Below, piece by piece: positions 4,729 to 44,052 of a DNA stretch of 64,000 bases. Made by a program: the position numbers and the translations under genes. The DNA is from Trissonchulus latispiculum (taxonomy: Eukaryota > Nematoda > Enoplea > Enoplida > Ironidae), in contig JASAND010004376.1 in NCBI GenBank assembly GCA_030248195.1, positions 1 through 64,000 of the forward strand, in the 5' to 3' direction. How positions within the stretch are numbered: the first letter of the stretch is position 1; each line of letters starts with the position of its first letter. The notes under the pieces were generated by a model that made no database searches, was not told the origin of the DNA, and worked only from the letters and a program-made list of their open reading frames with translations.

Positions 4729-5740
4729 CACTTTGTGTAAATTTGACCTTACAGGCTCCAATTCGTTATGAAAGTGGATGAAACTTCCAAATACCTTATT
4801 TTCGTGCTCTTCAAGATGCTGGGACCAGTCCCGGATTTTTAGGTTTAAAGATAAGAAAGTTTTGGTTTTTGCCCATATTATCTCAGTACATAGTCGCTAC
4901 ACAGGATTGGTTATTATGGCTGAAAAGAAGACACGAAAATGAACATTTTTCCTTTTACAACTTTTGAGCTACCTCTAGTAGTTAAGGCAGTATAAGCAAA
5001 AAACCATTTTGAGGGTCAAAAAAGGCCATTTTTGACGAAATCAGTTCTTTTCAAAATTTCTGCCAAATCTTACAGACAATTTCGGTTTATTTATACTCAT
5101 CGATACACTGTCCGATTGCGCATTTTATCAATACCTATTCGCTGGAGTTCTTTGCTTTAAGCTAGACAATTCGCCGAAAAACCATTTTGGCAAAATTGCG
5201 ATTATTTTGTTTTGAACATGTATTTCTCAAAAACTGCCCAATGGATTCGCGTGATTTTTAGCTGAATGAAAATTCGCCCTATTGCGGAGGGACATTTTTC
5301 TTGGTTTGAGCTAAAACATCTCCAGGTGTGAGAAAACTGAATAGAAAGTTGCGAAATTTCGTGTAATCGCTCTTTTGCCGGATTTTCTGGAGTACTGAAA
5401 CTTGTTGAGCCAAATCGAAAAAATTTCCCTCGGCCCACATGTTCTTCATTTCATGGTACAAGAAAAAAGTTTTGGCCGATTTTACAGTTTTGAGAAATTG
5501 ATGTTCAAAAATCTTTGGTCTATATTCAGTCTGTCAGATGTCAACATGTCGGAAGTTTTTTGCTATTTTTTGCCAATTTTGCTAGTTTCGTAAGCTCATG
5601 TTAACGTACACATTATAAGCTTTAAAACGATGTTTCAAGCTCTTTCCAACTCGCAAAATTGCGAAAGTTATAGCGTTTCGACAAATCACCACAAAAGCAC
5701 TGCACAAAAGCACTGCACAAAAGGATAGCAGCACCTTAAG
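4729..5740. repeat. Direct repeat unit 1 (about 1 kb, non-coding)
   Basis: The unit starts at CACTTTGTGTAAATTTGACC and ends at CACCTTAAG. It aligns over its whole length with 6317-7305 at visibly reduced identity, including the shared stretches AAAACCATTTTG and GCACTGCACAAAAGGATA. Its first 28 bases overlap the outer end of the palindrome. Short ORFs are not conserved between the two copies, so I call it non-coding. Confidence 0.75.
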
Positions 5741-6316: not shown

Positions 6317-7305
6317 CACTTTGTGTAAATTTGACCTTACCGGCTCCAATTCGTTATGAAAGTGGATGGAACTTTCCAGATATGCTATTTTAGTGCTCTT
6401 TATCATACTGGAACCAGTCACGGATTTTTAGGTGCAAAGATAAGAAACTTTTGGTTTTTGCCATTATTCTCTCAGTACGTTGTCGTTACACCGGATTGGT
6501 TACGATGGCTGAATAGAGGGTGCCCAAATGAACACTTTTGCTTTTACAACTTTTAAGCTATCTCCAGTGGTTAAGCCAGTATAAGCAAAAAACCATTTTG
6601 AGGGTCAAAAAAGGCCATTTTCGAGGAAATCTGTTTTTTCAAAATTACTGCCAAATCTTAGTAACAATTTTCGTCTATTTATACTCAATTCAAAGAGCGT
6701 CCAAATGCACATTTTATGAATCCCTGCTAGCCGGACTTTATTGCTTTCACCTAGAGATTTTGCCGGAAAACCATTTTGGCAAAACTGCGGTTTTTTTGTT
6801 TTAAACATTGATTTCTCAAAACCTACTAGACAGATTCCGGAGATTTTCGCCAGAATGGAAATTCGTACTATTGCGGAGGGACGTTTTCCTTGGTTTTGGC
6901 TAAAACGTTCCCAGTTTCTAGAAAATTTAGTGCAAAGCTTGAAAATTTAGTGTCTCTGTATATTTTGCGAATTTTCTCAAACGTGAAGTGCCACTGAGCG
7001 AAACCCAAAAAACGTCGCTCGGTCCATATGTCCTCTGTATGATAACGCAAATAGAAATTTTGTCAGGTTCCGCATTTTTGAAAAATCGATGTTCGAAACT
7101 TTTTGACCTTTATTTACCACTTATGTCAGAAAATTTTTGCCAATTTTTTGCTGACTTTGCAAGTTTCATAAGCTCATGTGAATGTCCTAATTATAAGCTT
7201 TAAGGCGATGTATAAAGCTCATTCCAACTCCCAAAATTGTGAATGTTATAGCGTTTTAAAAAATCACTACAAAAGCACTGCACAAAAGGATACTACCACC
7301 TTAAG
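6317..7305. repeat. Direct repeat unit 2 (about 1 kb, non-coding)
   Basis: This is the second, diverged copy of the unit at 4729-5740, in the same orientation. It begins with the same GTGTAAATTTGACCTTAC block and ends in the same CTTAAG. Together the units look like an old tandem duplication with a 576-bp spacer. Confidence 0.75.
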
Positions 7306-8901: not shown

Positions 8902-9432
8902 TGTGAAGTTTGACTCTACTGATCTTAGTAAAAACGTTGCTGTCTGACTTTATTCCCTAGGATAAGACTAAATTACAGGTAACAACAGTGGTGTGTGACG
9001 CTGGAGCAATGTTCGGCCTGACCAACTAGAAAACGATAGAAAGATTACAACGGTTTATTGTACTTTAAACAAGAACTTGACGACAAAATTAGAGCAAACG
9101 TTAATTTTAAGGACGAGCATAAACTTTATAGAAACACAAAATACTAGCAAAACGCCCGGCCGAAGCCGACTATGCGACAGAAGTTAAGTTACCTAACCAA
9201 AACTCACACCAATCTCCCCAAATCGAACCCAACCACTTGCTATCAAATCTTACACCCACACTGACTTCTGAGCAACCCAACATGGAGGAATACAATTATT
9301 AGCTATCGAACCTACGAATTTAGACAAGAGTGATGCGAAACGATTGAGCGTTCAACAAATGAAATGTTATTTTCACTTAGGCTTAGAATCTCAAGTATAA
9401 TTTATATCTTTCCTGTCGGTGCTAACTTCACA
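8902..9432 (-). repeat. 3' LTR of the 17.6 kb element
   Basis: This 531-bp LTR begins (plus strand) TGTGAAGTTTGAC and ends GCTAACTTCACA. In sense orientation a TATAAATTATA box-like sequence lies about 27 bases from its start, and AATAAA (complement at 9054-9059) is a likely poly(A) signal. It is ~97% identical to 25948-26473. A diverged solo copy of the same LTR family is at 48304-48832. Confidence 0.93.
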
Positions 9433-9450
9433 TAATACCCCCTCTTTTGG
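9433..9450 (-). other. 3' polypurine tract
   Basis: In sense orientation the sequence CCAAAAGAGGGGGTATTA directly precedes the 3' LTR. It is the expected plus-strand primer. The core AAAAGAGGGGGT is repeated exactly three times inside gag-pol and is shared with the small LTR element (46888-46900). Confidence 0.85.
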
Positions 9451-12196
9451 CCCCGGGCGGCCTCGGACGGGTCCACTAAATTAGAAGACTTGATAAAAAA
9501 GGATTACTCACAGGTACCTTAGGTACTAGTAAAGGTAAAACGTTTGTGAAAATTACGTAAAGATAAAATAAAACAACTGCGGTGAACATACACCATACCA
9601 CGGTTGAGCACACAACTTTTTAACATGCTAACCGGCCGACGGTAAAACTACTCGGAACTGAATCGAGACATTTTCGACAAACTACTACAAAAACTTACTT
9701 ACCTACTCAAAACCTACGTAAAATTTTAAATTCCCGCCCGAGTACACCCAGGTACCAAAAGAGTAGGGAGCACCGACAGGAAACAGTAGGGAAACAAAAA
9801 CAACCCACTATTGTAAACATAAGAACTATGGTATATAATGATGACAAATATGTAAATGTAAACATGGCAAGAAACTATTATGCATAAGACAATAGACAAA
9901 AGAATCAAAAATTGTACATAAATTGTAGCAGCCAATATAGGAATGAAGTAGTAAAGACAATGCCAGAAAAATACTAGATTAGTGAAACAAGAAAGAAAAT
10001 TAATGTCATCAAGAAATTGTAGTATTCGAGGAAAAAGTAAAGAAAATTTGAGATTCGAAAGAAAACATAAACCGTGTAACCATATTTAGTAGAAAAACAG
10101 ACAGAAAAGTGATAGTGAAAAACTAGAAAACTATACCGACACCGACAGTTACAACGGATAAACCGAGGTGGCGAGCGCCCTGACGAAAAAGAACAGAAAA
10201 TATCATCAATTAAGCCCCAATTTTGAAATTTAATCCCTGCGGCTCCCTCCCAATCAATCACAACCAAGAAACTAGAACCCGAAAGAAGATACCAATCACC
10301 TATACATTGATTAAACAACAATACAAAAATCACAACAATAGGGTAGGGGGGAGAGCGTCACGGGTGTGCAGAGACAGGGACACTGGCGGTTTTCTCCCCA
10401 GCACCGCAAACTGTTGCTGTTCCAACCATAGAGTCGTTTCAGCCGAAAGTTCATACGGCCGGATCCTACCAAGGCTGACCGTAGCAGGCCTCGCGAGGCC
10501 TCCTGACCCTCGCCGCCAAGTCCAACCCAAACCAAACCGAGCCAAAAGGCACCCGGGACCAGGACTGAGCACAAAGCAGATGGCCATGCAAGCCGTGGAC
10601 GCATCAGCCTGATTCCCCAACGGCGGTAGGTGGACCACAGACACCAAAACCCCATATCCAGGAGCCAAAGACAAGCTCCAGACGTAGAGACCCGTCAAGG
10701 CCCCAACAGCCTTGACCAACCAAAGGCCAATCCAGGCCAACCAACCCAAGATGGCAGACACAGGCAACAAAGCCTGCCCAGAAAGTCCAGCACAAGGCCA
10801 GGAAAACCCACCAGACCTGGCGCCGACGAAGATGGAGTCGACTGCAGAGGAAAGAGACCCCCGCAAGCCGATACGGCAACCAGCCACCGGAAGCAAAATA
10901 CTTCCCAAAATCACTAGGACGGCCAGGCAAGCCACCAACACCAGGCGCCCAACCAGATGACAATCGCACAGAGCACAGTGCGCCCAAAGAGTTCAAAAAG
11001 ACCGGCCAAACCGACCGAAACTACCCATGTCGGCCAATAGACCAACCAACCACAGCCAAAAACCTGGCCACCCAAGAGTCCAGAGGCCTGCTACGAAGGA
11101 GAACCAGTAGAATCCAGCCCCAGCAGCCACCGTCCAGACGTCATGGCAGTAGAGCACTGCGCCAGACCTTCGCACCAAGCAATGGGCGGTAAAGTCCATT
11201 CCTGATCCATCCAGCACATATCCTGGGGGGCACACCCGGCACTGAGGATGGGGGGTCGGCACCGGCACAGCACAGAAAAAGATTACAGGATTAACTAAAA
11301 CACACAAAAAACAAAAATTAAGGCAATCAAATAAAGCACAGAAGAATCATGATTAATAAATGGCAAGGTTAAACAAAACAAAATACTGACGAAACATAGT
11401 TACAGCCCCACCTATGACTTTAGTAGCTCCAGAACCAATGGGAGAATCGCAGCCCCGGTATGCGGAGGAGAAACCCCATAGGCCTGTGCTTATCAAAGAG
11501 AATCTCAAAGGCAAACTAAACGAAACGGAATCAAAAAGTAAAAAGAATGTTAAGGAGCGTGCGGCCCACCTCACCCGGTATGCGGAGACCGGAGCGGCCC
11601 GCAACTTAACACTCCAAAAGCGAGTGTGAAAAATGTAGGAGCACCAAAAGTTAAAAGTTGTAAAAATGTTAAAAAGAAAATCCAATCTGCTGTGTGGAAT
11701 TTAGAAAATCAACGAAAATCAACAATTAAAGTTTATTCCAATAAGAAAGTGAAAATTCAAGCAAAATATAATCGAGAAAGGCAACTTTAAAGTACCAAGG
11801 AGAAAAATCTATACATACTAAAATCAAGAAAAAGAAGAAAAAGTTTGAAATCGTTTACAAAACTCAAAAATTCAAAGAAGAAAGTACTCAAATGAACAAA
11901 TATTTATAAATTAAATCAGAAAGGCAGAGAAGAAATATGAAATTTATCAAGAAAATCATCTAAAAGGGTCAAATATAGAACGACATGTGTCAAGAAATCA
12001 AGTAGAATTACCCACACAGCAGATAAAAGTTAAATGTAAAAATAGTAAAAAGAAAAGAAAACGAGAGAACCCCCCACCCCCCGTGGTAAAACAGTAAAGA
12101 TAAGAGAAAAAGATAAAAAGACTTTTAAGCACCAGTTTTTAGCACCAACCCGTACATAAAGGGGCAAGAATATACACAAGAAAACTGCATGAGAAC
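9451..12196 (-). other. Long 3' untranslated region of the retrotransposon, with a GC-rich conserved block
   Basis: 2.7 kb separate the stop of the second ORF from the PPT. 10200-11300 is much richer in G and C than the rest. Overlapping minus-strand ORFs occur there (10330-10941, 10604-10996, 10993-11307) with hydrophobic stretches that could be read as env-like. The homologous block in the small LTR element (45756-46240, plus strand, roughly three quarters identical) does not keep these frames open, so I favour a conserved non-coding role. The segments on both sides are A-rich on the plus strand and show no ORF of interest. Confidence 0.6.
10486..10501. promoter_or_regulatory. Conserved 16-bp palindrome in the 3' block
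   Basis: AGGCCTCGCGAGGCCT is a perfect palindrome inside the GC-rich 3' region. The corresponding sequence of the small LTR element at 45958-45973 is AGGCCTCGTGAGGCCT, so both arms are kept. It could form a hairpin in the transcript, or be a protein site. The role is unknown. Confidence 0.45.
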
Positions 12197-15100
12197 TTAG
12201 GGCGGGACGATCTTTCCGATCGCCGCCCGGTGGGCCCGCTGCCGGTCATTCCAAAGTTGTTCCATTTCACGATTTAAATTTGGAAACAGTTCAGCGCGCA
12301 AGATCATCATAACTTTCCCCAACCAATTGCGATTTTGCTGTTTATGCACGCGAATAACTTCACTAGTGACCTGATTTGGAGACAAATTGTCAATCTGCTT
12401 TTTAGACAAACCAATTCCCCAATACGGGTCACTGGTAGCTTCAACCAGCAGTCGGCAGCCAGAATCGCGCAAAAATTCAACAAAATCTGGGCAAGATTTA
12501 GCCTTGGCACGCAGGACTTCAAGCATCACGAACGCGCGAACATGCATATCTTTGCCTTGCCACAATTTGCGAATAACTGAGTCAGGTGGCAGCCAACCCA
12601 TAATTTGTTCAGCAGCGAATTTGCAATAAAACGGATTCAAATATTGCGCGCAAGCCTCAGCAGGGGCATGCCAGCAAGCGAAAAAGAAAAGTTTTCGGAA
12701 TTGATAAGCTTGCTCAGCTGTTTGAAAATAATAACCCCACAATTCAACCCACCCATTTGCACCCGGGACCTTTTTCGGTTCAAGACGAAACATATTAGAC
12801 GCCGGGTCAAAAGCACCTTGAAAACGAGCAATCGGATGAAAATAAGGAAAATTAGAAGCGCGCATCAAAACATGACCCAAACACTCTTCAGTGACTTCCG
12901 CTGCCACCTTGACCATTGTTTTGGATCTTTCAGCCCAAACCCGAATTAAATCTGCCGACTGCTGGAAACGCGAAAGAGATGGATAAATATTCACAAACGG
13001 AAAAAATCGCGAAACCAAATCAGCTAGCGCAGCAACTTTATAGGGCGCAAAACCAACAACCTGAAAAGACTCAAAAAGAACTTTGTCATCGCGCAAAATA
13101 GCTGGAAATTTGATAGAAAGTTTCCAAAATTCTGGTTCTTCCAACTGAATGCGGTAAGAAGGATGAGACACCGGTTCCAATTTATCCCATGTGATAACAG
13201 GGCTTGCATCAGAAAAAAGAGTGTTAATAACACCAAAATAGTTTTCCATCGCAAAATCAGTCAATGCAAATGGAGCATGTTTCAAATTTCTAAAATAATT
13301 TTCCCAATACCGAAAAGAACTAGTGAAATAGGGATTCAAAAGCGAGGGATCCGATTCTGCAGCGAAATCGGGCAAAGTCACAACCTGCCATTCAAATTCC
13401 GAATAAACCCGCAATGGAACAGCCCTGCGATCATTTAAAATAGCTGACCACACTGCCTGATGGTAATGTGGGTCAATTTCCTGCGGACCCTCGTACTTAG
13501 GAGCCCCTAGAAGGGCACCATCATCAGTAGTGAGAGCAATCGATGGAGGCTTCATAGACTTGATTTCCCGATCTAGAGAAAACCCACTGCGATGCGTAAT
13601 GTGTGGAGGTGGATCAGCATAAAAACGAGGAACTGCTTTTTCAACCAGATAGCGTGCAGAATATTTATACAAAACTTGCTTCGCATTTGCAGGATGGTCC
13701 CAAGGGGCCGCCGAACATTCAAATTGCTCACTCAGACTCGCATAAGACAGAAAATGTGACTCAGGCCACTGAATCGTGGAAGACGAAGGCAAAGTTGCCG
13801 AGTCCCGCAGAGAAAAAGTCTGTAAAGGGATGTCCAATTGCACGGGAGGCAAATGTTCATCTCTGTGCTGTGGAAAAGCGCGTTTAGCGTACTTCGGATC
13901 AGTCGAAAGAGGTTGGGAGGCTTCCTGAGGCTCCGCAGATGCAGAAGTCCCAGGTTGTCCAGATGTGGACGAAGCCTCGTCCGAGCTAAAACGCACCGTA
14001 GTACGTGAAGCCGGGACTGAAGAAGAACGAGAAGGGCGATTTGTGCCCGGAGTAGGAGCAAACATAGGGTCGGGAGTCAATCCCAGACCTGCAGATGGAG
14101 TGCCGGCAGGCGGGACGCCCCCTTGCTCCGGAAACATAGAACCTGGAAAAATAATTTGCAGAAGTTGAGTCAAAGGAAAATCAGCACGAGACATTAAAAC
14201 ATAAACAACTTCGATAGCGTCCCAAGGAGCTGGATGACCAATCCAGACTGACAAAAGTTCCTTAGAAAAGCCCAAGGAAGCAAGCAGCGCAAACTGGATA
14301 TCTGTGGAAATTGGAGGCATGCGGTGCCAAAATGCATCAGAAAATGAAGTTCTAGCTGCCACGGGTAATGAGCCCAAACCTGGCGTGCGAAAATTTAGAT
14401 GTGGCATGAACCACTCAACTTGTGACTGAGCCGCCTGTTGCAAATTCGGCTGATTTTGCACATTCCAGATAGGGACTGTAGGGGTAGGGGAGGGAGAGGT
14501 AGGGGCGGACTGGGAAGCGGGACGGGGAAGGGACATACGTAAAGGACAACTCATACGCGGCTGAAAAATAGGCGTAGGCGTCGGCTGATTTCGCAAAAAC
14601 TGAAAAGAGTCACTAAAAGTAGGAGGGCGCATCACCCCAGTTTGAGTAGAAACTGCCACCGAAGAAGTAGAAACAGGCAAATTTAAACGTGGCGGAGCCG
14701 GCCAAGCTCCGAGTGGAGCCGGAACCGGCTGCGGCGATGGCTCAACGGCCATTTGCCCCGCCAAAGAGAGCGAATCAGAGACTAAATTTGCAGGTAACAA
14801 AACAGAAGCAAAACGCGGGGGCCCTTGTTCGGCCTGCACCGGCAGAACCAGTTGAACACAGGGCTGATCTAAATTTAGCACAGAAATGGAAGAATTTTCA
14901 TTCGAATGAAACACAACATCATCCAAAACAGCTGTCGAAACACTAGTAGTCGTCGGAAAAAGTTGATCTATAATTTCTTCTTGAGAGAGAGAGGTGGGAG
15001 GGGGAGGGGCAGGAGGAGCCGAGGGGTCCTCGGTCTCCATAGGGACAGCGACGGAAGGGGCCGGGGAAGGAATGGGGGTGGGGGGAATAATATTAACAGT

Positions 15101-17326
15101 AGGGAGGGAAGAAAAAGTAGACGTTTGCGTCGAAAACGGTTCAGTAACTGGCTGAAAATTTTCTGGACCTAGACCCGGAGTGCTGCAGGCTGCACCCTCC
15201 TCGCCGACAACCGCAGCCGGCTCAGGTGGCGCCGAAGGCAAATCCCGCTCAATGCGGGACGGAGTCTCCGCACCAGAAGAGCCGACCTGCGATGGCTGGG
15301 CCAGCGACGAAGAAGGGCCTACGAACACCGCCGAATCAGAAGGGGACTGATTTTCTTCTGCATAAACAACGTGAAAAGCCGCTGCCGGCTGATTTGACTG
15401 TTCAGAAAGGGGAGACCGGGTAGCGGAAGGGATAAGAGGACGGAGGGGGGTGGAGGGGAGAGACGAGTCCCCAGCTGGAATTTCCTCCTGAGACGGTGGG
15501 CGCGAATGCGGTTCCCATTTTGGAGGAGGCGTTTCCAGCCTGGGCTCATTTTCCGCATCAGAAGAATTTGAAGAAACGTCTAAAATTTCTGAGGGAAGAC
15601 CCTCTGGCACCTCATGCTGCTCAGCAGCTTTTTCGTCCAATTTACGCTGCTCGCGCTCCTTATCTGGTTTCGGAGTTTTTGGCGCAAAAGTGTATTCCGG
15701 TTCTTCACCGGCCAATTCAATTTGCTGAGCGCTCGGAACCAAGACCGGATTGGGACGATCCCCCACAGTCGTAAACAAATCCGAATTCAACTTATTTTGA
15801 TCCGGCAAAAGTTCTAACGGCGCAGCTTTTGACAGAATTTTGACATCGACCACTTTTTGAGTATGACGCTTATCGCCATCAAGATGCGCAATCAAAAGAT
15901 CAAACAAAGGTCGAAACAAAGGTTCATCCAAAATATGTGGAAGCGCCGAATTTTCAAGACGTTCCAAAGTGTCTCGCTGCGAGACTTGACTCAAAGATTT
16001 TGTGCGCTGCAGCAGCTGAAAATGTTCAATACCAAAAGAGGGACACGAATGCAGCAAACGCTGGACAACCAAAACCAAATCAAGCGCGTCTTTCAGAGCA
16101 TAAGCAATTTCAGATGGTTTCAAGAAAGACATAAAGCCATGCGCCGAAACATTTTTGCACAAGCGCCCTGGATATTTCAAGACATGTTGCTGAAGCCACC
16201 CCATCGAAAGGTTCTCATGCAGTTTAGGGGGGGGAAGGCAACGCTGATTATTCTCATCAAACCATATATGCGGGCCCCGAAGTGGATGTTCAGGGTCATT
16301 CTCCGGGGGGAGTCCCTTGAGGGCCATTCTGCGATAAGCGAAACGAAAGAAATGATTTATGTCGACTAGTGAATTTCTGGCATCGATACCCAAATTACCA
16401 AGGATTCGACGTGCATCGCACAGCGCATTGACCACCAAAACTGGAAACGGAGTGTTATAGAGTAAAGGTTGCAGCGCATAACGAATCAATTTCCAAGAGG
16501 GCACTTGGAGGTAGATGGCGTGAACCATCACCACCGTAAGTCTCAAACCAGATTCAGCCCCGACCCTTCCCTGAGTCGGATTCAAAGGGTCAATTTCTTC
16601 ACGAAAAGCTGTAATATCTGTCGGAACTGCGAACTGTAAAGTCGTCGCAGACTGGCCCGTAGGGATGTCCAGCCATTGCTGAGAATGACCCTCAACATCC
16701 AAAACGAGAAACCCGGCTTCTTTCGCCCAGAAAAACAAATTTTCAACCTCCCCAACAAGAGCTTCAATTTCAGTCACAATACATGTAGCCGCACGTAATT
16801 TTTCATCCAGGAAAGTTGCCTGGTGAATTTGATTCAGCCAGTCTTCCCTCCAGCGTCTGTCGGCAGCTAAAGCGAAATCAATTTTGGGAGGGGGTTTTTC
16901 TTCAAAAACAAGAGCCAAATCCCCTAGAGAAATAGGGGGTAGCGGTTCTGTATTAGATTTCCGCATTTCCGACCGTTCCCGTTTCCGAGAGCGGCGTGAA
17001 GACGCTGATTTCTGAGAACGTTTCGACTTTTGAGATTTCTTAGAAGGAGACGGATCTGAAACTGACTCAACGTCTACTACGACATCTTCAGATGTATCTT
17101 TTTCTGACGGTTGATAGCTCGCATCAGACTCTGAAGTGCGAGACTTTTTCGTGCGTTGAGAACGACGCAAAGGAATCTGTGAACTAGGGGGGGCACCCAC
17201 TTCTGAAAGCTTTTTCCAGTCGCGGGATGCCCCTTTTTCCTGTAAAGTTTCTGCTAAAGGCTGTTCGGGACTGGATTCCCGTTCTGATGTTTCCGATTTA
17301 TCTTGGTGCCTGCGTTTCCGAACCAT
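12197..17326 (-). CDS. Retrotransposon ORF2: DEDDy exonuclease-like domain plus C-terminal NADAR domain (1709 aa)
   Basis: This intact ORF follows gag-pol on the same strand. Residues 1-125 are basic and Ser-rich (RRSQRTKKSR, RRSRKRERSE), like a nuclear localisation region. Residues ~200-425 carry the motifs of RNase D/WRN-type 3'-5' exonucleases: LVLDVEG (D210, E212), NALCDARRILGNLGID (D304) and YALKDALDL (Y409, D413, the YxxxD of the DEDDy subtype), with a GWLQQHVLKYPGRLCK segment before motif III. Residues ~540-1170 are Pro/Ser-rich and probably disordered. Residues ~1170-1510 look globular but I do not recognise them. Residues ~1525-1680 match NADAR/YbiA: TAEQAYQFRK (E1538), LVEATSDPYWGIGL (E1629, W1636) and NWLGKVMMILR. 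Studied NADAR proteins cleave ADP-ribose from guanine; a role here in reversing host ADP-ribosylation or processing cDNA is inference. Start: first ATG, GTTCGG following, with a good in-frame context and no upstream in-frame extension needed. Confidence 0.85.
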   Translation of the reverse strand: MVRKRRHQDKSETSERESSPEQPLAETLQEKGASRDWKKLSEVGAPPSSQIPLRRSQRTKKSRTSESDASYQPSEKDTSEDVVVDVESVSDPSPSKKSQKSKRSQKSASSRRSRKRERSEMRKSNTEPLPPISLGDLALVFEEKPPPKIDFALAADRRWREDWLNQIHQATFLDEKLRAATCIVTEIEALVGEVENLFFWAKEAGFLVLDVEGHSQQWLDIPTGQSATTLQFAVPTDITAFREEIDPLNPTQGRVGAESGLRLTVVMVHAIYLQVPSWKLIRYALQPLLYNTPFPVLVVNALCDARRILGNLGIDARNSLVDINHFFRFAYRRMALKGLPPENDPEHPLRGPHIWFDENNQRCLPPPKLHENLSMGWLQQHVLKYPGRLCKNVSAHGFMSFLKPSEIAYALKDALDLVLVVQRLLHSCPSFGIEHFQLLQRTKSLSQVSQRDTLERLENSALPHILDEPLFRPLFDLLIAHLDGDKRHTQKVVDVKILSKAAPLELLPDQNKLNSDLFTTVGDRPNPVLVPSAQQIELAGEEPEYTFAPKTPKPDKEREQRKLDEKAAEQHEVPEGLPSEILDVSSNSSDAENEPRLETPPPKWEPHSRPPSQEEIPAGDSSLPSTPLRPLIPSATRSPLSEQSNQPAAAFHVVYAEENQSPSDSAVFVGPSSSLAQPSQVGSSGAETPSRIERDLPSAPPEPAAVVGEEGAACSTPGLGPENFQPVTEPFSTQTSTFSSLPTVNIIPPTPIPSPAPSVAVPMETEDPSAPPAPPPPTSLSQEEIIDQLFPTTTSVSTAVLDDVVFHSNENSSISVLNLDQPCVQLVLPVQAEQGPPRFASVLLPANLVSDSLSLAGQMAVEPSPQPVPAPLGAWPAPPRLNLPVSTSSVAVSTQTGVMRPPTFSDSFQFLRNQPTPTPIFQPRMSCPLRMSLPRPASQSAPTSPSPTPTVPIWNVQNQPNLQQAAQSQVEWFMPHLNFRTPGLGSLPVAARTSFSDAFWHRMPPISTDIQFALLASLGFSKELLSVWIGHPAPWDAIEVVYVLMSRADFPLTQLLQIIFPGSMFPEQGGVPPAGTPSAGLGLTPDPMFAPTPGTNRPSRSSSVPASRTTVRFSSDEASSTSGQPGTSASAEPQEASQPLSTDPKYAKRAFPQHRDEHLPPVQLDIPLQTFSLRDSATLPSSSTIQWPESHFLSYASLSEQFECSAAPWDHPANAKQVLYKYSARYLVEKAVPRFYADPPPHITHRSGFSLDREIKSMKPPSIALTTDDGALLGAPKYEGPQEIDPHYHQAVWSAILNDRRAVPLRVYSEFEWQVVTLPDFAAESDPSLLNPYFTSSFRYWENYFRNLKHAPFALTDFAMENYFGVINTLFSDASPVITWDKLEPVSHPSYRIQLEEPEFWKLSIKFPAILRDDKVLFESFQVVGFAPYKVAALADLVSRFFPFVNIYPSLSRFQQSADLIRVWAERSKTMVKVAAEVTEECLGHVLMRASNFPYFHPIARFQGAFDPASNMFRLEPKKVPGANGWVELWGYYFQTAEQAYQFRKLFFFACWHAPAEACAQYLNPFYCKFAAEQIMGWLPPDSVIRKLWQGKDMHVRAFVMLEVLRAKAKSCPDFVEFLRDSGCRLLVEATSDPYWGIGLSKKQIDNLSPNQVTSEVIRVHKQQNRNWLGKVMMILRAELFPNLNREMEQLWNDRQRAHRAAIGKIVPP

Positions 17327-18066
17327 TTTTGAAGCCGACAGACACTGTGGAAAACTACCTGACCCTACACTATAACAAAATCAAGAAAAAGTTACCACCT
17401 GATAGTTTTCCAGAACGGATCCAAAACAAACCAAATCTGAACAGGAACCCCGGAAGGCCTCCTGACAACTGAACCAAACAGAAAGCCACCACCAAAAGAT
17501 GACCAAACCAGCTCTGAAACAAGAAATAAATATAGTGCATTACATGAAAGTGAAGAAAAACACCAAATTCATTATAAAAAACAAAAAGATTTAGAGAAAG
17601 ATAGCCCAAAAGACTAGAAACCAAAATATAAAGAAAATTTCAAGGAAGGAGAAGTTCAAGGGTACCAGAAGGTACGTATTCAGAAAATTTGGAAGGTCAA
17701 TCCGTTGGAATTAGGGAAATACGTATTGTACAATTTAGAAATTCAACGATATAAATTTAAAAGAATAAAGAAAGCCACAAAACTTATGAAATTTAATCTA
17801 AGAGAGGATACGTATATACGTATACAAGAAAATCTAGGAAAATTTATGAAAAGAAATTTGATTTACCCAAAACAGTAGAAACCAGGTTGGTGCCAACAGT
17901 GTTACACACAAAAATATAAGCGCCTAAAATAGTAAAAACAAAACAAGATTAAGAGCTAAAACAAAGAAAAAGATGAGATCACTCTAGAACAAGAAGCTAT
18001 AAAGGAACAAAAGACATAGGTGAGGCATACAGACAAAATACAAAATACAAACAATACAATACAAAA
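17327..18066 (-). other. Spacer between gag-pol and ORF2, with a possible splice acceptor
   Basis: This 740-bp stretch is T-rich in sense orientation and has no ORF of note. About 45 bases upstream of the ORF2 start, the sense strand reads a pyrimidine-rich run, TTTTTCTTGATTTTGTTATAG, followed by TGTAGGG (AG at 17371-17370). That looks like a 3' splice site. A second candidate, TTTTCCACAG, lies closer to the ATG. A spliced subgenomic mRNA, as used for env in retroviruses, would explain how ORF2 is expressed 8 kb from the cap. No donor was assigned. Confidence 0.4.
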
Positions 18067-21000
18067 CTAGGTGAGGAACGGCTTAAGACGATTTACATGG
18101 ATTTTCTCAGTAGGGGGATCCGTTTTTGTAGTAGACTGAATTTCAACATTTGGAGGCGCAAGAACTTTGACCACCCGAAACGGGCCCTCGAAGACTGGCA
18201 GGTATTTGCGGCTTGCACCCTTTGGGATATTCGCCTTTGCAATATCTTTCCAAACTAACATGCCTTCTTTATAATCAACTTTCTTAACATTCGCATCGTA
18301 ATCATCTTTACGCTTTTTCAAGATTTTTTCCATATGTTCTTTCAGTAAATCACGAGAAAAACGCAAACGTTTACGCAGATCTTGTACGTATGACGAGTTG
18401 AAGGGTCTAGTTGTTGGATCAGGCATTTTCAAAAAGTTTTCAGAAAACAAACGGGGATCACGTCCGTGGAGAAGATAGTACGGAGATTCTCCGGTAGAGG
18501 CATGTGGGGCTGCCCGGTATACGAACAGCACCCAAGGGAGAAGGGTGTCCCACTCCCGCTCAAAAGCCAACATACATTTGCGTAACATGCCTTTAAGGGT
18601 GCCATTGAGTCTTTCACAAGCACCATTCGACTGTGGGTGATAGGCAGTCGTGCGTACTTTTCGTGTTCCCATAAGTTTACAAAGTTCGTCCATAAGAGTA
18701 GAGCAAAAGGGGGTGCCCCGATCAGTTAGAATTTCACGAGGGGCCCCATGAACCGCAATAATTTGTTCTGCCAAAAGTTTTGCAATAGTGGTGGTCTGTT
18801 CATTAGCCATAGCGAAGGCCCACCCCCAACGCGTCAGAAAATCAACCATCACTAGAACTTTGCAATGCCCCACCGAAGTAGTAGGAGCATGCATAACATC
18901 CATGCTGATCCTTTCAAATGGTGCCTCTACCGGAGTAAAAAATTTCATGTATGCTTGAGGCTTGCGAGGACCAGGGTTGCAAGCCGCACATACCTGGCAG
19001 CATTCGAGGAACCGTGTGACATCACGAGACATAGTTTCCCAATAATATCTAGCGGCTATTATTCCCATCATTTTTGCTCGCCCAACATGACAACCCCCCA
19101 AAAAATCATTATGACATTCTTTGAGAACATATTGACGACAATCAGTGGGGACCACAATGAGACGAATAGCATCAGGGAGGGGAACACCTTTCTTATCAGT
19201 TTGAAAACGGTATAGCATGTCATTTTCGTAAACAAATTTTGAAGCAGAGCTACGTACGTACGAGGCCAGCTGTAAATCTTTCGGAAGTTTATCATTTTGC
19301 AAAAATTCAATCATAGCAGAAGTAAACGGGTCAGCCTTAAGGGCCTCGGCCCAAATTTCCTTTGCAGCAAGCATCGGAACTGGGTGACCCGGACCATCAT
19401 CGGGGCCTTCATCATCTACAACATCATCTAACAGAGCAAAAAGATATTCTGGAATTTTCGGATATTCAGCAAAAACCCCGGCAATGGCAGGCGGATTGCG
19501 AGACAATGCATCCGCTGCCCCGTTGACTGAACCAGGCTTTTGAATAACGCGAAAACGAAATTGTTCAATGAAAGCACGCCAACGGGCCACCCTCCCTTCA
19601 GCCGTCTTAGGTTTTGCGGCATCGCCCAAGATGTATTCTAAGGCCTGATGGTCCGTGATCACGTCAAATTTGTGCAAAATCAAATAGTGTTGAAAATAAG
19701 AAATTCCAAAAAAGATAGCGAGAGCCTCCAATTCAGTAACGGTATAATTCTTTTCGGAAGCATGGAGGGCTCTGGCCGCGTACGCAACTGGGTGAAATTT
19801 TTCCTTCTCATCTGCCTGCTGCAAAATGGCAGCTATGCCTTGATAACTAGCGTCAGTAACAAGAGTAAACGGTTTCGTAAAATTTGGATAAATCAAAACT
19901 GGTGCCGTAATTAATTTTTCCTTCAAAGTCTCAAAAGCAACTTGACAAGCAGAATCCCAGACAAATTCAGCACCTTTTTTCAAAAGTCGCGTCAAAGGAT
20001 TAGCAATTTTGGCAAAATGGGGAACAAAACGACGATAATAGCCCGCTAAACCCAAAAAACTTTGAATATCTTTGACGGATTGAGGCACAGGAAAATGTCG
20101 AACCACCCGAATTTTGTCAGGATCGGTAGCAATGCCAAATTCTGAAAGAATATGACCCAAAAAGGCCATCTGTTTACGTGCAAACTCGCATTTTGACAAT
20201 TTTAGCAAAACATGCTCTTTTGCACAACGCTGGAAAATGTCAAGTAGACGCTGCAGGTGGTGATTCTGAGTCGGACTAGTAACTAGAATATCATCAATAT
20301 AAACAATAAACCCTTCCATGATACGATCAATTATCCGTTGGAAGGTACTAGGGGCGTTACACAACCCAAACGGCATAACTTTGAATTCATATAACCCCGA
20401 ATGAGTAATAAAAGCTGTTTTTTCCCGATCTGCCGGATAAACAGGAATTTGATGGAAGCCCGAGGCTAAATCCAGTTTCGAAAAAATGCAATGACCCAAA
20501 ATGAGTTCAAAAAGACCATCAATTCGGGGAAGGGGATAACTATCTTTCTTGGTGACAGAATTTAGTTTACGATAGTCAACACAAAGGCGCCAATCCCCAT
20601 CTTTCTTTGCTACTAGAATAATCGGGGAAGCCCACGGAGACCGAGAGGGTTGTATAAGGCCCTGCTCCAACCAAGCGGACAATTTCTCGTCTATGATTTT
20701 CTTCTGTGCTGGGTTAACTTTGTAAGCCCGAGCACGAATAGGCCGTTTTCCTGGCTCAATTTCGATATAATGATAGTCAATATCGGTTTTCCCAAAACCG
20801 CCTGTAGCGTCCCAAATATCAGGGAAATTTAGAATCATGAGTTTTAACCGCCGTTGATTTCGACGGGACAAGCAACAATCTTTCAAACTAATTTTTCCGT
20901 TCAAAAGGGCACGTTTTGCTGCATCTGCAAAAAGGGCAGTTGCTACCGATTCAGCTGCAGTCAGAGGGTCAACCTCGACCTCTTCTTCAGGAGTACGTAC

Positions 21001-24000
21001 AATATCCCCGTTCTGAGGGATACGTGAAAAGGCCTCGTCAAAAGACAAATCAGTAGGATGATATTTTTCAGTGGTCACTCTATACGTACGGGGCTCAAAC
21101 CCAGGTTCTCCCGGATGAATCTTACGCCGTAGAAATTTTCGAAACTTTTTAGGCGGAGCAGAAGACACCTGGTTGAGGTCCACGCCCTCACCCTGGGGTC
21201 CCTGACCAGCAGGGGGCCCAGGGGGAGGCTGAGACTCTGACGCCCAAGACTCTACAATATCGGAAAACGCTACTGGTACCGTTGGCCAAGAATCTTTCGT
21301 TTCCTGAGAAAAATCAACCAAATCATCACCCGAGAACAAACATGACTGCAAAGTTTTTGCCTCCCCGTCCAAAATTTTGGGGGTGACCACCCCCTCTTTT
21401 AGAGGAGACTGAGGCTCAGGAGGGGCCGTAACCCCCTTAGCACAAGAAGTCGCTTCCGGGATTTTTTCAGATTCGTCAAAAATTTCGTTCGGAAATAGGG
21501 GGTCCACCCCCTCTTTTAGCAGGAGGTCCCCTTGAGTAGAATCAACGTCACAATTAAGAACCAACTGCTCATCAAACGGAGAATCAGACAAAGACCCAGT
21601 AAACGGAGAAGAAATTTGGGGAGGAGGGGTCCCGAGGTCCTCATCAACAATAAACAGCATATCATCAGTGTACGTATCAACATTAACTTGAGCCCTCGTG
21701 ACTGCCAACGGCACCTCTAGGTTAGGGTCTGTGGAGAAATAGTCGTCAGCCGGGCTAATGGACCCCAACATGGTAGCCTTCGATAATTCAACGGGACAAT
21801 TTGTAGGATTTGCAACCAAAAAATCAAAAGTAGTTTCCCGAGGCACAACAATCCCCCCATAAGGCAGTACACGATTTATATGTACAAAATCATCAAAAGG
21901 TTCGAACAAATGGGGAGTCTCGGTCAGTCTTGGGGAGACCCGGGCCTGAGCCCAGACCTCCGAGGAGGGAGGAACCACCACGTCAACTGCTAGAACCACT
22001 GCCAAAACTGTTGAATCCCGGGTGTTCCATTCAGCTCTCAATTGATCAGGGGTGAGCAAATCGTGGTTCATAGTACCCATATAAACTTTATTCTGAGAAA
22101 GGATAATATCCCACGAAAAAGCTTTCATAAAATCCGTACCTAGCAGAATATCCCTGTAGAAATCGGGGGCCACGTGAAATTGCCACCCGAACTGAATTTG
22201 ACCAACTTTGAAAGGCAAAAATGCTTTCCCCGTTAGTTTCAAATAATCACTTCCTGGTGTACGTGCTTTAATAGGATCCGGGTAATTAACCACGATTTCT
22301 GCGCCCGCCCTGAGGAGACGTTCAAGGCCCCCCGTACTGATAATCGAAATGGACGCTCCCGTATCTACAATCGCAACCAATTTTTGACCGTTGACATCAA
22401 TCAAAATTGCTGGAGTGTTTTCACCCGCTGCTAGAACAGACTCAAGGTCAATTTCTGGGACATCCCCCGGTTCCGCGAGAGCTGAATGGCCCATTAGGTC
22501 AGAAATTTGTACCACGCAATGAGGACTTACCTGAGAGGCCGGTGTAGCCTCTGTTTCTGGAGGAAGAACTTCCTCGCCTTGGTCCTCCTGGACCCAATTT
22601 GTGGCCTCAGCTGGTGCAGGTTCTTGGGCAGGTGGTTCGGACGGAGCTGTATAGGGAGACCCCGGGCCCGCCAAAATAGGAGAACCCCCCGCACACCACG
22701 AATCCGACGGCTCAGTTTCATTCATCCAAACATTATTTGAATCAAACTTATTTGGCCATAAACGGAGAAAAAGATCAGTCATATCACCAATATGCAACCG
22801 AATGGCGTCAAAATATTTATTCATAAATTCGTGAGTTTGACCATGAATGGCTGCCAATGTCGTGAAATTCCGATGAAGCAACTGAAATTTTTGAGCCACC
22901 TGATGTTCTACAGAATCAGTGTCAAAAGACAAATTTGCCCCCAGAACCTGGTCCGAGGTTTCCTCCGGTTGGTTTGAGAGGCCTAGACGTTCGTAATCGG
23001 GCTCAATCTGTAGCATGTTAACCGAAAGCTGGTTAACCATCTGATTTACCTGTTGAGCCGTCGGAGGTGGAGCAGTTTGGGGGTTTCTACCCCCTCTTTT
23101 AGGCTGGGCCCCGCCCCCTACCGGACCGTGAGAAGCTGGAACAAAATTTGCATTCAGACAGGGAGGACCGGAAGCTCTCGCCCCCGCCCCCCGGTAACGC
23201 GGCTGACCCGCTTGCAAAGGCACCCGCGGACGCGCCACAGAATCAGGAGCCGCCACGCCTTGTGACTGCCACTGAGACTGCAACAGCGGCCGAGGCTGGC
23301 CCTGCGCAGCATGCTGCCACGGAGGCAGATACTGTTGAGGGGCCGCCGCATAACCCGGGGACTGAAGCGCCGGGTCATGCTGTGGATAGTATACCGGCTG
23401 AGGAGGCATCTGAGGGTAGGCCCCCACCATATCAACTTGTGCCTGATTATTTTGATTATTCCTACCTTTATAACCCGGAGGGGCTTTTGAAGGGTCCTTG
23501 TCCCAACAGCGATCCGGATGATGCCCCCGCTTGTTGCAGTGACGGCAAGGAGGAAAGCGTTTTTTCTTTTCTTCCTCCATTTCTTTGAGTTTGTCCAAAA
23601 ATTTTGTCTCAAACCAGTCCTTCATTTCCCGCAGCTCCAGCCTAGTCGCAGGAGTCGAATCAAGGGGGGCAGCCCCGTCCCTGGAGGAATTCTGGGCGCC
23701 AACATGAAAGACTGGGGCAGCAAAAGCGTGTTGATCTGCCAAAGTAGGTTTAGAGATCCGGGATTCCAATTTATCCAGGATACGTAGAATTTCGTCCAAT
23801 TTAGGCTCACCTTTTCCGAAATTAGATGCCAAGGCCGTAGTATATTCCGAACGAATGCCATCAAAAAGTTGTTGAACGCAGTGCCTGTCCCGATCTGCCT
23901 GTGATGGCCAAATTTCCAAGGCTTGAGATTGCAGCTCCGACACGTATTGCCGGACGGTTTCCCCAGGCTGCTGGACTCTTTGAGCAAAGCGATGAAATTT

Positions 24001-25923
24001 TTCCGAAACTGATTGTTGAGGCTTCGGAAATTGGGCGGACATCATACGTATAAATTCATCTAATGACTCAACAACCTTAGGACCAACCTTCGAAGCAAAA
24101 GAGAGAGCCTTACCAGACAGTTTGTTAAACATCAGACGGGCCCACTGGTCTCGAGGGATCCCTTGCACAGTAGCTGCTGAAACAAACTGTGGTAACCAAT
24201 CTTCAAAATACTCCAAAGCTGGCTCAAAACGAGGAATGTCATGTAAAATTGCCATATACGTACGATAAAGTTGAGCATTATGGCGTCCAACAGAAGCATC
24301 TGTAGCATGCATAGTAGCCGGAGTGGGATGAGGCCTCGACCGAGGACGAGCCCCTACTGAGTGGTCAGTGGCCACCCGACAAACTGCCTGGTCTGTCTGC
24401 GTCGAATTTGGAGGCTGTTGGTCCGCCGGTTGTTGAGACAGGGGGGGAGTCTGCTGAGAAGCAGGCTCTGGCGGATTCAGGTAGTAGCCATAATTCTGAG
24501 GTGTACCCGGCACAGGGTCCGGATACATCGGGGCCAGTTGTGGCTGCGTCTGTTGAGATTCAAAATATTGTTGTTGATTCAAATCAAAATGTAAATTCGG
24601 ATCATAATAGCCATATTGAGCATAATAAAAATAATTTGGATCATAATAACCATAGCCATCAGCCTGAGGGCCGCCCGCCTGATACGGCGGAATCTGCTGT
24701 TGCTGGGGCTGCGGTCCAGGCACTGCGTGTGAAGGGGATCCATGATTAAACTGAGCAGGTCCATTCTGTTGGGGAGGCGGAGCATTTGACTGAACTGGAG
24801 GGGGGACATGGGCCGGAGGAGGGGCCGAAGACTGCTGAACAGTATTTTCTGGCCGCTGATTCTGCTGAGACTGATTATGCGTAGAGATCATTGTCGTTTG
24901 TCCAGTGCCATATGAATATTGGGACTGGGGAGAGACTGGAGCTCCCCCTCCATTCGACTCCGACTGGACATGGCCGGCCACTGAGACTGAAGGACCGGCG
25001 TGAGGGGCAGCAGGGGTCGAACCCCCCGCTAGCCCTCCTGATTCCGGTGAAAGTCCAAGAGCAGCACGCCGTTCCGCAACAAGCTGATCTGTTAATCTGT
25101 CTACCATTCCCTTATAAAAATCTGAAATTTTCTCCAACCGCCTAGGATGTCCCCGAGGGAGATCTCGAATTTCCGGGTCCCGCACGACAGCAGCCGCCGC
25201 CGCGAAAATTTCCTCCTCAGATGGTAGCACAGTCTGACCCGGGGGAGCTGCCGAACCCCCCGTTTCTTCCGACGGAGACGTAATAACAACACACACCTGT
25301 TCCAAACCCGCAGCCGAAGCTGAATTTTCTCCCTGAATTTCTGGAGTGGGCGTCGGGGGAAGGGGGGGTTGGGAGGAATTTTGGGGGGTTCGCCCCCCAT
25401 CCTGCACCATCTGACCGGGAGAAAGAATTGGAGGGCCAAAAGCTTTATTCAACATCTGAGAATATGACGGCCGTGGAATTTGCTGAGTATTAGAGGCCGA
25501 AGTTTGGGGCTGGGAAGAACCCCCCGCCTGGGTCCACTGGGGGGGTGGACCTCTGCTACTGACCGGGACTTGAGCCATACAACAGGGAATATTTTGATTT
25601 CGCCCAGAATTTTCCCCCCAAGTTTGCAAGGGAATCGTAGTGGGGATATAGGGAATCCCCCAGTTTCGATAGGGCGCTCCCCCCCGAGTTCCAGGTGGAA
25701 CCCCGTCCTGGAGGGGCGGATCAGTGTATTCCCCAAGTTCACGCGGGTCCCCCCGATCCATAACTGGGGCCTGCTCACAACACCTCTGTCGCAAAACTAA
25801 ATCGTTATACTCGTCCGGGTAATCTAAATTTTGTAAAAATTCAAAAAGCCGTTGAATATCTTGAAGCCGATCTTCTAAAGCACGAAAAAATTTAGGGTCA
25901 AGACCGTCACACTCCTCCAACAT
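18067..25923 (-). CDS. gag-pol: Gag-Pol polyprotein of a Ty3/gypsy-type retrotransposon (2618 aa)
   Basis: A single frame encodes, with rough residue positions: a long Pro/Gln/Tyr-rich extension (1-545), a retrotransposon Gag capsid-like region (~550-700), one CCHC zinc knuckle CRHCNKRGHHPDRC (~793), an aspartic protease DTGAS (~1187), a long acidic Pro-rich linker (~1300-1690), reverse transcriptase with YIDD (~1735-1960), RNase H starting VTDAS (~2024), an HHCC zinc finger (~2270-2308) and an integrase core with D (~2340), D (~2399) and E spaced D-35-E (TDRGTPF to ACERLNG). No chromodomain is seen at the C-terminus, which ends RLKPFLT. All catalytic motifs are present and no stop or frameshift breaks the frame, so Gag and Pol must be made as one protein or be separated by protease. 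Start ATG lies 24 bases after the LTR. Confidence 0.95.
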   Translation of the reverse strand: MLEECDGLDPKFFRALEDRLQDIQRLFEFLQNLDYPDEYNDLVLRQRCCEQAPVMDRGDPRELGEYTDPPLQDGVPPGTRGGAPYRNWGIPYIPTTIPLQTWGENSGRNQNIPCCMAQVPVSSRGPPPQWTQAGGSSQPQTSASNTQQIPRPSYSQMLNKAFGPPILSPGQMVQDGGRTPQNSSQPPLPPTPTPEIQGENSASAAGLEQVCVVITSPSEETGGSAAPPGQTVLPSEEEIFAAAAAVVRDPEIRDLPRGHPRRLEKISDFYKGMVDRLTDQLVAERRAALGLSPESGGLAGGSTPAAPHAGPSVSVAGHVQSESNGGGAPVSPQSQYSYGTGQTTMISTHNQSQQNQRPENTVQQSSAPPPAHVPPPVQSNAPPPQQNGPAQFNHGSPSHAVPGPQPQQQQIPPYQAGGPQADGYGYYDPNYFYYAQYGYYDPNLHFDLNQQQYFESQQTQPQLAPMYPDPVPGTPQNYGYYLNPPEPASQQTPPLSQQPADQQPPNSTQTDQAVCRVATDHSVGARPRSRPHPTPATMHATDASVGRHNAQLYRTYMAILHDIPRFEPALEYFEDWLPQFVSAATVQGIPRDQWARLMFNKLSGKALSFASKVGPKVVESLDEFIRMMSAQFPKPQQSVSEKFHRFAQRVQQPGETVRQYVSELQSQALEIWPSQADRDRHCVQQLFDGIRSEYTTALASNFGKGEPKLDEILRILDKLESRISKPTLADQHAFAAPVFHVGAQNSSRDGAAPLDSTPATRLELREMKDWFETKFLDKLKEMEEEKKKRFPPCRHCNKRGHHPDRCWDKDPSKAPPGYKGRNNQNNQAQVDMVGAYPQMPPQPVYYPQHDPALQSPGYAAAPQQYLPPWQHAAQGQPRPLLQSQWQSQGVAAPDSVARPRVPLQAGQPRYRGAGARASGPPCLNANFVPASHGPVGGGAQPKRGGRNPQTAPPPTAQQVNQMVNQLSVNMLQIEPDYERLGLSNQPEETSDQVLGANLSFDTDSVEHQVAQKFQLLHRNFTTLAAIHGQTHEFMNKYFDAIRLHIGDMTDLFLRLWPNKFDSNNVWMNETEPSDSWCAGGSPILAGPGSPYTAPSEPPAQEPAPAEATNWVQEDQGEEVLPPETEATPASQVSPHCVVQISDLMGHSALAEPGDVPEIDLESVLAAGENTPAILIDVNGQKLVAIVDTGASISIISTGGLERLLRAGAEIVVNYPDPIKARTPGSDYLKLTGKAFLPFKVGQIQFGWQFHVAPDFYRDILLGTDFMKAFSWDIILSQNKVYMGTMNHDLLTPDQLRAEWNTRDSTVLAVVLAVDVVVPPSSEVWAQARVSPRLTETPHLFEPFDDFVHINRVLPYGGIVVPRETTFDFLVANPTNCPVELSKATMLGSISPADDYFSTDPNLEVPLAVTRAQVNVDTYTDDMLFIVDEDLGTPPPQISSPFTGSLSDSPFDEQLVLNCDVDSTQGDLLLKEGVDPLFPNEIFDESEKIPEATSCAKGVTAPPEPQSPLKEGVVTPKILDGEAKTLQSCLFSGDDLVDFSQETKDSWPTVPVAFSDIVESWASESQPPPGPPAGQGPQGEGVDLNQVSSAPPKKFRKFLRRKIHPGEPGFEPRTYRVTTEKYHPTDLSFDEAFSRIPQNGDIVRTPEEEVEVDPLTAAESVATALFADAAKRALLNGKISLKDCCLSRRNQRRLKLMILNFPDIWDATGGFGKTDIDYHYIEIEPGKRPIRARAYKVNPAQKKIIDEKLSAWLEQGLIQPSRSPWASPIILVAKKDGDWRLCVDYRKLNSVTKKDSYPLPRIDGLFELILGHCIFSKLDLASGFHQIPVYPADREKTAFITHSGLYEFKVMPFGLCNAPSTFQRIIDRIMEGFIVYIDDILVTSPTQNHHLQRLLDIFQRCAKEHVLLKLSKCEFARKQMAFLGHILSEFGIATDPDKIRVVRHFPVPQSVKDIQSFLGLAGYYRRFVPHFAKIANPLTRLLKKGAEFVWDSACQVAFETLKEKLITAPVLIYPNFTKPFTLVTDASYQGIAAILQQADEKEKFHPVAYAARALHASEKNYTVTELEALAIFFGISYFQHYLILHKFDVITDHQALEYILGDAAKPKTAEGRVARWRAFIEQFRFRVIQKPGSVNGAADALSRNPPAIAGVFAEYPKIPEYLFALLDDVVDDEGPDDGPGHPVPMLAAKEIWAEALKADPFTSAMIEFLQNDKLPKDLQLASYVRSSASKFVYENDMLYRFQTDKKGVPLPDAIRLIVVPTDCRQYVLKECHNDFLGGCHVGRAKMMGIIAARYYWETMSRDVTRFLECCQVCAACNPGPRKPQAYMKFFTPVEAPFERISMDVMHAPTTSVGHCKVLVMVDFLTRWGWAFAMANEQTTTIAKLLAEQIIAVHGAPREILTDRGTPFCSTLMDELCKLMGTRKVRTTAYHPQSNGACERLNGTLKGMLRKCMLAFEREWDTLLPWVLFVYRAAPHASTGESPYYLLHGRDPRLFSENFLKMPDPTTRPFNSSYVQDLRKRLRFSRDLLKEHMEKILKKRKDDYDANVKKVDYKEGMLVWKDIAKANIPKGASRKYLPVFEGPFRVVKVLAPPNVEIQSTTKTDPPTEKIHVNRLKPFLT
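21389..21400 (-). other. Internal copy of the polypurine tract (1)
   Basis: In sense orientation this reads AAAAGAGGGGGT, identical to the 3' PPT core. It encodes part of SPLKEGV in the PR-RT linker. It may prime additional plus-strand synthesis (central PPT); this is inference from sequence identity. Confidence 0.6.
21506..21517 (-). other. Internal copy of the polypurine tract (2)
   Basis: The sense sequence AAAAGAGGGGGT is identical to the 3' PPT core. It is read here as LLKEGV, the same frame as the copy 117 bp away. Confidence 0.6.
23089..23100 (-). other. Internal copy of the polypurine tract (3)
   Basis: This is the same AAAAGAGGGGGT core, but translated in another frame (PKRGGR) between Gag and protease. 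Conservation of the DNA across different reading frames argues for a nucleic-acid function and not a protein repeat. Confidence 0.6.
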
Positions 25924-25932
25924 CTACCACAT
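25924..25932 (-). promoter_or_regulatory. Minimal uORF (Met-Trp-stop) abutting the gag start
   Basis: The sense sequence reads ATG TGG TAG ATG, the last ATG being the gag start (25923). The uORF is in frame, two codons long, and its stop is directly followed by the gag ATG. The small LTR element has the same ATGTGGTAGATG after its PBS. This arrangement could favour termination-reinitiation or limit translation. Confidence 0.5.
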
Positions 25933-25945
25933 GACACGGTCGCCA
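25928..25945 (-). other. Primer-binding site
   Basis: The sense sequence TGGCGACCGTGTCATGTG begins two bases after the 5' LTR. TGGCGACCG is the complement of a tRNA 3' end reading CGGTCGCCA, as in tRNA-Arg used by 412/mdg1-type elements (from memory). The same PBS core recurs at 44874 and, as TGGTGACCGTGACA, at 32855. Confidence 0.75.
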
Positions 25946-25947
25946 CA

Positions 25948-26473
25948 TGTGAAGTTTGACTATACTGATCTTAGTAAAAACGTTGCTGTCTGACTTTATT
26001 CCCTAGGATAAGACTAAATTACAGGTAACAACAGTGGTGTGTGACGCTGGAGCAATGTTCGGCCTGACCAACTAGAAATCGATAGAAAGATTACAACGGT
26101 TTATTGTACTTTAAAACAAGAACTTGACGACAAAATTAGAGCAAACATTAATTTTAAGGACGAGCATAAACTTTATAGAAACACAAAATACTAGCAAAAC
26201 GCCCGGCCGGAGCCGACTATGCGACAGAAGTTACCTAACCAAAACTCACACCAATCTCCCCGATTCGGACCCAACCACTTGCTGTCAATCTTACACCCAC
26301 ACTGACTTCTGAACAACCCAACATGGAGGAATACAACTATTAGCTATCGAACCTACGAATTTAGACAAGAGTGATGCGAAATGATTGAGCGTTCAACAAA
26401 TGAAATGTTATTTTCACTTAGGCTTAGAATCTCGAGTATAATTTATATCTTTCCTGTCGGTGCTAACTTCACA
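25948..26473 (-). repeat. 5' LTR of the 17.6 kb element
   Basis: This 526-bp LTR is the partner of 8902-9432. It differs by scattered substitutions, a 5-bp deletion and two 1-bp indels. It would supply promoter and transcription start for gag-pol, with TATA-like and AATAAA signals in the same places as in the 3' copy. Confidence 0.93.
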
Positions 26474-42802: not shown

Positions 42803-43271
42803 CAGATTGAGTAAAATTCTGGTCAGCTTTTTAAATTGATTTTTAAAATTTCTTGCAATAGAAGGAATTTGGCTTGTTTTTGTATGAGTGGATCATGAAG
42901 ACGAATAAATTTGCAAACTTTCTGCAGAATATCGTTTCATGACTCAAAAATTGGTGTGCAACGCTACCCTCCACTTTAAAATTGGATTCCAAAAATAAAC
43001 CAAAACGGATCAAAGAAAATTAAGGGGTCAACCGAGACGTACTTCACCCAAGGATATTGACTCAATGCGTTTCGGGTCTGACTCAGAGTGGGTGTGCTAA
43101 GGGTACAATACGTGCGAAGTTTTTGCACAAAAAGAAAACCAGACGCAGAAAATCAGACGAACAGGTTAAGTTTAATGGTGCATGCATTACCATTAGCAAT
43201 GTTAATCACGATTGAAATACTTAGCATTAAAATTAAAATTAGAATTAGCTGCTTTTTTATTTTGCTTTCAG

Positions 43272-44022: not shown

Positions 44023-44052
44023 GCAAGTGAAATCGAATGTATTAGGTCTAAG

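Follow-up and report, generated by a model that had tools for sequence, protein, structure and literature searches.

The closest described systems are of two kinds. Bdelloid long terminal repeat (LTR) retrotransposons such as Juno and Vesta carry an additional, enzyme-type third open reading frame (ORF3), of DEDDy type, in the env position, and in Adineta sp. 11 the DEDDy domain is joined to a GDSL esterase within a single ORF3 (PMC5408684); an opinion paper of 2019 already counts the DnaQ-like exonuclease among the well-known accessory domains that LTR elements carry (PMC6338049). The NADAR domain has been described from the Pol protein of a Gypsy lineage of the brown alga Ectocarpus (e.g., Gypsy-12_Ec32) and from the ORF1 protein of Tx1 long interspersed nuclear elements (LINEs) of the oyster Crassostrea gigas (PMC12477816). 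The locus considered here lies in a 64,000-nucleotide stretch of the nematode Trissonchulus latispiculum (assembly GCA_030248195.1, contig JASAND010004376.1, positions 1 to 64,000; hereafter, the window), and is a Ty3/gypsy LTR retrotransposon (Metaviridae-like) with a third open reading frame in the env position, which ends in a NADAR domain.

Like Juno and Vesta, this element has an extra post-pol frame, and like the Ectocarpus lineage, it is a Ty3/gypsy element with a NADAR of the YbiA family, although in Ectocarpus the domain is part of Pol, whereas here it closes a separate frame; the oyster element shares the presence of NADAR in a retroelement protein, but is non-LTR, with the domain in the ORF1 position (PMC12477816). 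As far as the searches made go, the separate post-pol frame with NADAR is a new arrangement, the NADAR and DEDDy precedents existing separately, and makes a third arrangement of this domain in retroelements beside the two reported in that source. Repeated capture of this kind would suggest that NADAR activity aids retrotransposition. The physiological roles of eukaryotic NADARs are described as unclear (PMC11125620), a question that could be put to the test with an intact element bearing a single clear NADAR gene.

The complete-looking element is 17,572 nucleotides long and occupies positions 8902-26473 of the window, on the minus strand, with the following features:

12197..17326, minus strand: ORF3, 1709 residues, ATG start (open reading frame call)
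12287..12766, minus strand: NADAR domain, ORF3 residues 1521-1680 (Pfam, residues, and predicted fold)
16022..16744, minus strand: claimed DEDDy exonuclease, unconfirmed, ORF3 residues 195-435 (residues D210, E212, D304, Y409, D413)
25948..26473, minus strand: 5' LTR, 526 nucleotides, starting TGTGAAGTT and finishing AACTTCACA
25932..25945, minus strand: primer-binding site TGGCGACCGTGTCA, 2 nucleotides past the 5' LTR (by eye)
18067..25923, minus strand: gag-pol, a single open reading frame of 2618 residues (open reading frame call and Pfam)
22123..22401, minus strand: aspartic protease, gag-pol residues 1175-1267 (Pfam)
20146..20610, minus strand: reverse transcriptase, gag-pol residues 1772-1926 (Pfam)
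19558..19959, minus strand: RNase H, gag-pol residues 1989-2122 (Pfam)
18634..19152, minus strand: integrase, zinc-binding and core, gag-pol residues 2258-2430 (Pfam)
17327..18066, minus strand: T-rich spacer of 740 nucleotides between gag-pol and ORF3 (sequence)
9433..12196, minus strand: T-rich spacer of 2.76 kb between ORF3 and the 3' LTR, without convincing coding sequence
8902..9432, minus strand: 3' LTR, 531 nucleotides, starting TGTGAAGTT and finishing AACTTCACA

Both LTRs have TG...CA ends which, together with the primer-binding site and a polypurine tract read by eye, identify an LTR element. The primer-binding site TGGCGACCGTGTCA is presumably of the tRNA-Arg type, no tRNA having been matched in the analysis, and the sequence AAAAGAGGGGG (9438..9448, minus strand), which precedes the 3' LTR, is taken here to be the polypurine tract; gag-pol residues 793-806 (23506..23547, minus strand) are likewise presumed to be the CCHC zinc knuckle of gag. 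The Pfam matches to gag-pol follow the order protease, reverse transcriptase, RNase H, integrase, with the integrase behind the reverse transcriptase, which is the Ty3/gypsy order. The original prediction of an intact 1709-residue frame on the strand of a Ty3/gypsy element, between gag-pol and the 3' LTR, was thus borne out by the open reading frame call, by the two LTRs that enclose both frames, and by the four pol domains.

The Pfam NADAR family (PF08719) matches the C-terminal portion of ORF3 with 42.4 bits against a gathering score of 35.1, and the NCBIfam YbiA model (TIGR02464) matches the NADAR piece with an E value of 2e-11 and 44.3 bits (38.3 bits for the whole frame), short of the curated cut-off of 73.7 for this riboflavin-intermediate N-glycosidase equivalog; PHROG 1017 also matches, at E 3.8e-14. 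The motifs TAEQAYQ, LVEATSDPYWG, and NWLGK were found where they had been predicted. Six firmly placed active-site residues (E1538, K1545, W1589, E1629, D1633, W1636) are intact, and, with the residue roles taken from PMC11543638, these include the catalytic Glu and Lys and the subfamily acidic residue, a Glu of the YbiA type (E1538, K1545, and E1629, respectively). The structural prediction that had been called for yielded a YbiA-like fold for this part, from an alignment that itself contained NADARs, so that the fold is not an entirely separate line of evidence from the alignment. Both the fold and the six residues are shared with the DarT1-associated NADAR, the P. nicotianae NADAR (8bau), and E. 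coli YbiA, all of which are found outside retroelement proteins. A tblastn search with the NADAR piece (E <= 0.1) recovered 22 phage records and one plasmid record, with 25-35% identity among the 13 matches listed.

The alignment of viral NADARs included 43 of the 64 loci fetched. One of the 21 omitted loci has a stop (L128), five (L083, L123, L140, L145, L148) were set aside without a test, and the other 15 were left out as likely duplicates judged by eye, uncompared, or to limit the set. The loci were gathered through searches with phage NADARs (a YbiA search in the case of L083), and the residues they share therefore partly reflect a single family.

ORF3 begins 740 nucleotides 3' of pol, in a frame different from that of gag-pol, and a candidate 3' splice acceptor (...TTTTCCACAG) was recognized by eye in the T-rich spacer some 18 nucleotides upstream of its ATG. 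The N-terminus is basic, with few hydrophobic residues, and a basic stretch at approximately residues 102-116 could, we presume, be a nuclear signal. Most of the stretch at residues ~550-1160 abounds in P, S, T, Q, E, A, and G and, judged by this composition, is probably disordered. The relative codon usage of ORF3 correlates with that of gag-pol in frame (r 0.86), in contrast with the other frames (-0.03 and 0.05) and the opposite strand (-0.30), and on the basis of this match ORF3 is read as a long-term resident of the element.

The preferred reading, with a probability of roughly 45%, is that a full-length Ty3/gypsy element acquired and kept a third gene, which encodes a multidomain protein, soluble and for the most part disordered, with a probably active C-terminal NADAR hydrolase of the YbiA type. 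Like env, the protein would be translated from a subgenomic mRNA produced by splicing, and it would stay with the RNA or complementary DNA (cDNA) complex of the element, where the NADAR could free the guanines of either molecule from ADP-ribose, or from an N-glycosidic adduct related to it, keeping the template readable for the reverse transcriptase; the N-terminal region, at a guess, might be a DEDDy nuclease that has diverged and serves to trim 3' ends. The clearing of ADP-ribose from the nucleic acid of the element is plausible because the NADARs assayed act on guanine-ADP-ribose in both DNA and RNA (PMC11543638, PMC11833690): among the macrodomain, ARH, and NADAR families tested, only the NADARs reversed guanosine base ADP-ribosylation on RNA (PMC11833690), and they act on DNA as well (PMC11543638). 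A further elaboration, in which the host or its symbionts tag the guanines of the element RNA or cDNA, the NADAR erases these tags as a dedicated counter-defense, and a linked N-terminal nuclease trims the ends, appears improbable; if true, this eraser would be the retroelement counterpart of the bacterial NADAR antitoxins.

One alternative is compatible with this reading, and holds that ORF3 is a bifunctional DEDDy exonuclease and NADAR enzyme, cleaning and trimming the ends of the cDNA or RNA. The original prediction had proposed just such a pair, of which one half, the NADAR, stands through its profile and active-site residues, while the exonuclease is unconfirmed, all the profile tests having remained at noise. 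The residues D210, E212, D304, Y409, and D413 are present in DEDDy order, and the contexts of D210, D304, and Y409/D413 resemble RNase D when compared by eye, but membership of the family finds no profile support. Pfam returned no family at E <= 10 for residues 150-480, 190-335, or 195-435, PHROGs returned none at E <= 1 for the claimed region, and the only match in a PDB sequence search (E <= 10) was a putative lipoprotein. A hidden Markov model built from five RNase D-type sequences gave the region -4.0 bits, a score equaled or bettered by 575 of the 1039 scored shuffles (2000 made), while hhalign against eight sequences of this type gave a probability of 0.2%, with the aligned stretch lying outside the exonuclease domain, and a pairwise BLASTP against E. 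coli RNase D did not rise above noise. These self-built profiles were composed solely of bacterial RNase D-type sequences, so that a closer eukaryotic family was probed through Pfam alone. The single-sequence AlphaFold model of the region (predicted local distance difference test score 37.9) is not interpretable, and the fold search with it was meaningless.

These residues were also expressed as motif patterns. The early versions missed ORF3, and a stricter one missed RNase D too; the pattern was loosened afterwards, and the resulting version fits both ORF3 and RNase D, with no hits in 64 E. coli open frames, two in 3000 shuffles of the whole ORF3, and none in 3000 shuffles of residues 150-480. 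A simpler pattern was found in one of the 64 E. coli frames, in 97/3000 whole-ORF3 shuffles, and in 22/3000 of the 150-480 shuffles. The support from the loosened pattern is weak because it was fitted after the fact. The bdelloid ORF3s, which in Adineta sp. 11 combine the DEDDy domain with a second enzyme, lend this arrangement some precedent (PMC5408684). The exonuclease is nevertheless a motif-level conjecture, and it is rather doubtful that ORF3 holds a true DEDDy domain, while the bifunctional enzyme as a whole is somewhat unlikely. The original prediction knew of no described retroelement with both domains, and none of the matches listed in the open-access literature, which leaves out most subscription papers, combined NADAR and DEDDy within a single retroelement; each half, on its own, has a precedent (PMC5408684 and the NADAR passages of PMC12477816). 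PMC5408684 never uses the word NADAR in its main text, and in the present element the DEDDy identity is unconfirmed. The main text of PMC9503650, on viral NAD and ADP-ribose systems, contains none of five transposon terms.

The main rival is a non-catalytic role, in which the NADAR has been retained as a module for binding nucleic acids or nucleotides, or as a scaffold, resembling a gag-type accessory, without catalysis in the element cycle. This role gains its standing from the nematode protein SNA-3, as described in part of PMC9303266, in which NADAR domains serve trans-splicing, and one of the three lacks the conserved residues; for the oyster Tx1 element, the authors suggest the processing of RNA intermediates (PMC12477816). 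In ORF3, however, all six firmly placed active-site positions are intact, and a non-catalytic role is considered unlikely.

That ORF3 is a fragment of a host gene, recently captured in this one copy and functionless for the element, is less likely still. The searches made recovered no relative of ORF3, in DNA collections other than those of eukaryotic genomes and a protein collection whose eukaryote coverage is unstated. Against approximately 5.8 billion proteins, there was no homologue of the whole ORF3 at E <= 1e-3 (among the best 7990 word-sharing candidates, which were scored), of residues 150-480 at E <= 0.1, or of residues 1493-1709 at E <= 1e-3, and no relative was confirmed when viral_contigs was scanned with either ORF3 or gag-pol as the query. 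The in-frame agreement of codon usage with gag-pol argues against a recent capture, as do the 1709 open codons, in which ~2.1 stops would be expected (P of none 0.13, weak alone).

This expectation derives from the LTR pair, which differs by 12 substitutions over 525 aligned sites, with seven gap columns (Kimura two-parameter distance 0.023). Neutral decay at this distance would also give 3.2 stops in gag-pol, and the observation of none in either frame has a joint probability of ~0.005. No target-site duplication was found in the 25-nucleotide flanks (...AACTTA / CCCAAA...), compared by eye; it was possibly lost through recombination, or through an assembly error. The LTR divergence may, given this absence, reflect recombination between copies, and the argument from the stop counts is not pressed for this reason. 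The coexistence of LTRs 2.3% apart, without a target-site duplication, and two long frames that are both open is recorded as an observation in itself, with recombination between copies as one possible reason.

An envelope or membrane-targeting protein might be suggested by where ORF3 lies, past pol and before the 3' LTR, by its six N-glycosylation sequons, and by a furin-like site at residue 3, but is very improbable, given that hydropathy reveals no membrane segment (highest 19-residue value 1.34), the basic N-terminus shows no hydrophobic signal by eye, and the sole recognized domain is NADAR.

The spacer between ORF3 and the 3' LTR contains a hydrophobic open frame at 10330-10992 (minus strand), with a best 19-residue hydropathy of 2.95. 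As a further gene, this frame was rejected, given no Pfam match and a codon score that does not clearly exceed its shuffled null (z 1.5) and falls well short of those of the pieces of ORF3. Within 11300-11599, one of three frames reached a z of 3.0, which was discounted, as 21 frames were examined, and the lone weak Pfam match at 10999-11298 (cEGF, E 0.045) fell below the cut-off. A direct repeat of 158 nucleotides, 84% identical (5553-5710 and 7131-7288), adjoins the 3' end of the element.

Elsewhere in the window, two plus-strand frames (27823-28611 and 43082-44065) encode a MYND finger and DUF4470 (DUF4470 E 1e-14 and 1.4e-19, respectively), and apparently belong to a family of host genes. 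The plus-strand frame at 58374-59714 matches an Exo_endo_phos_2 endonuclease (E 6.3e-9), and the neighboring frame at 59802-61166, on the same strand, matches a reverse transcriptase (E 1.1e-30); the two are apparently parts of a non-LTR retroelement. A 206-nucleotide unit is present in two tandem copies, 98% matching, at 61121-61529, at the end of this reverse transcriptase frame.
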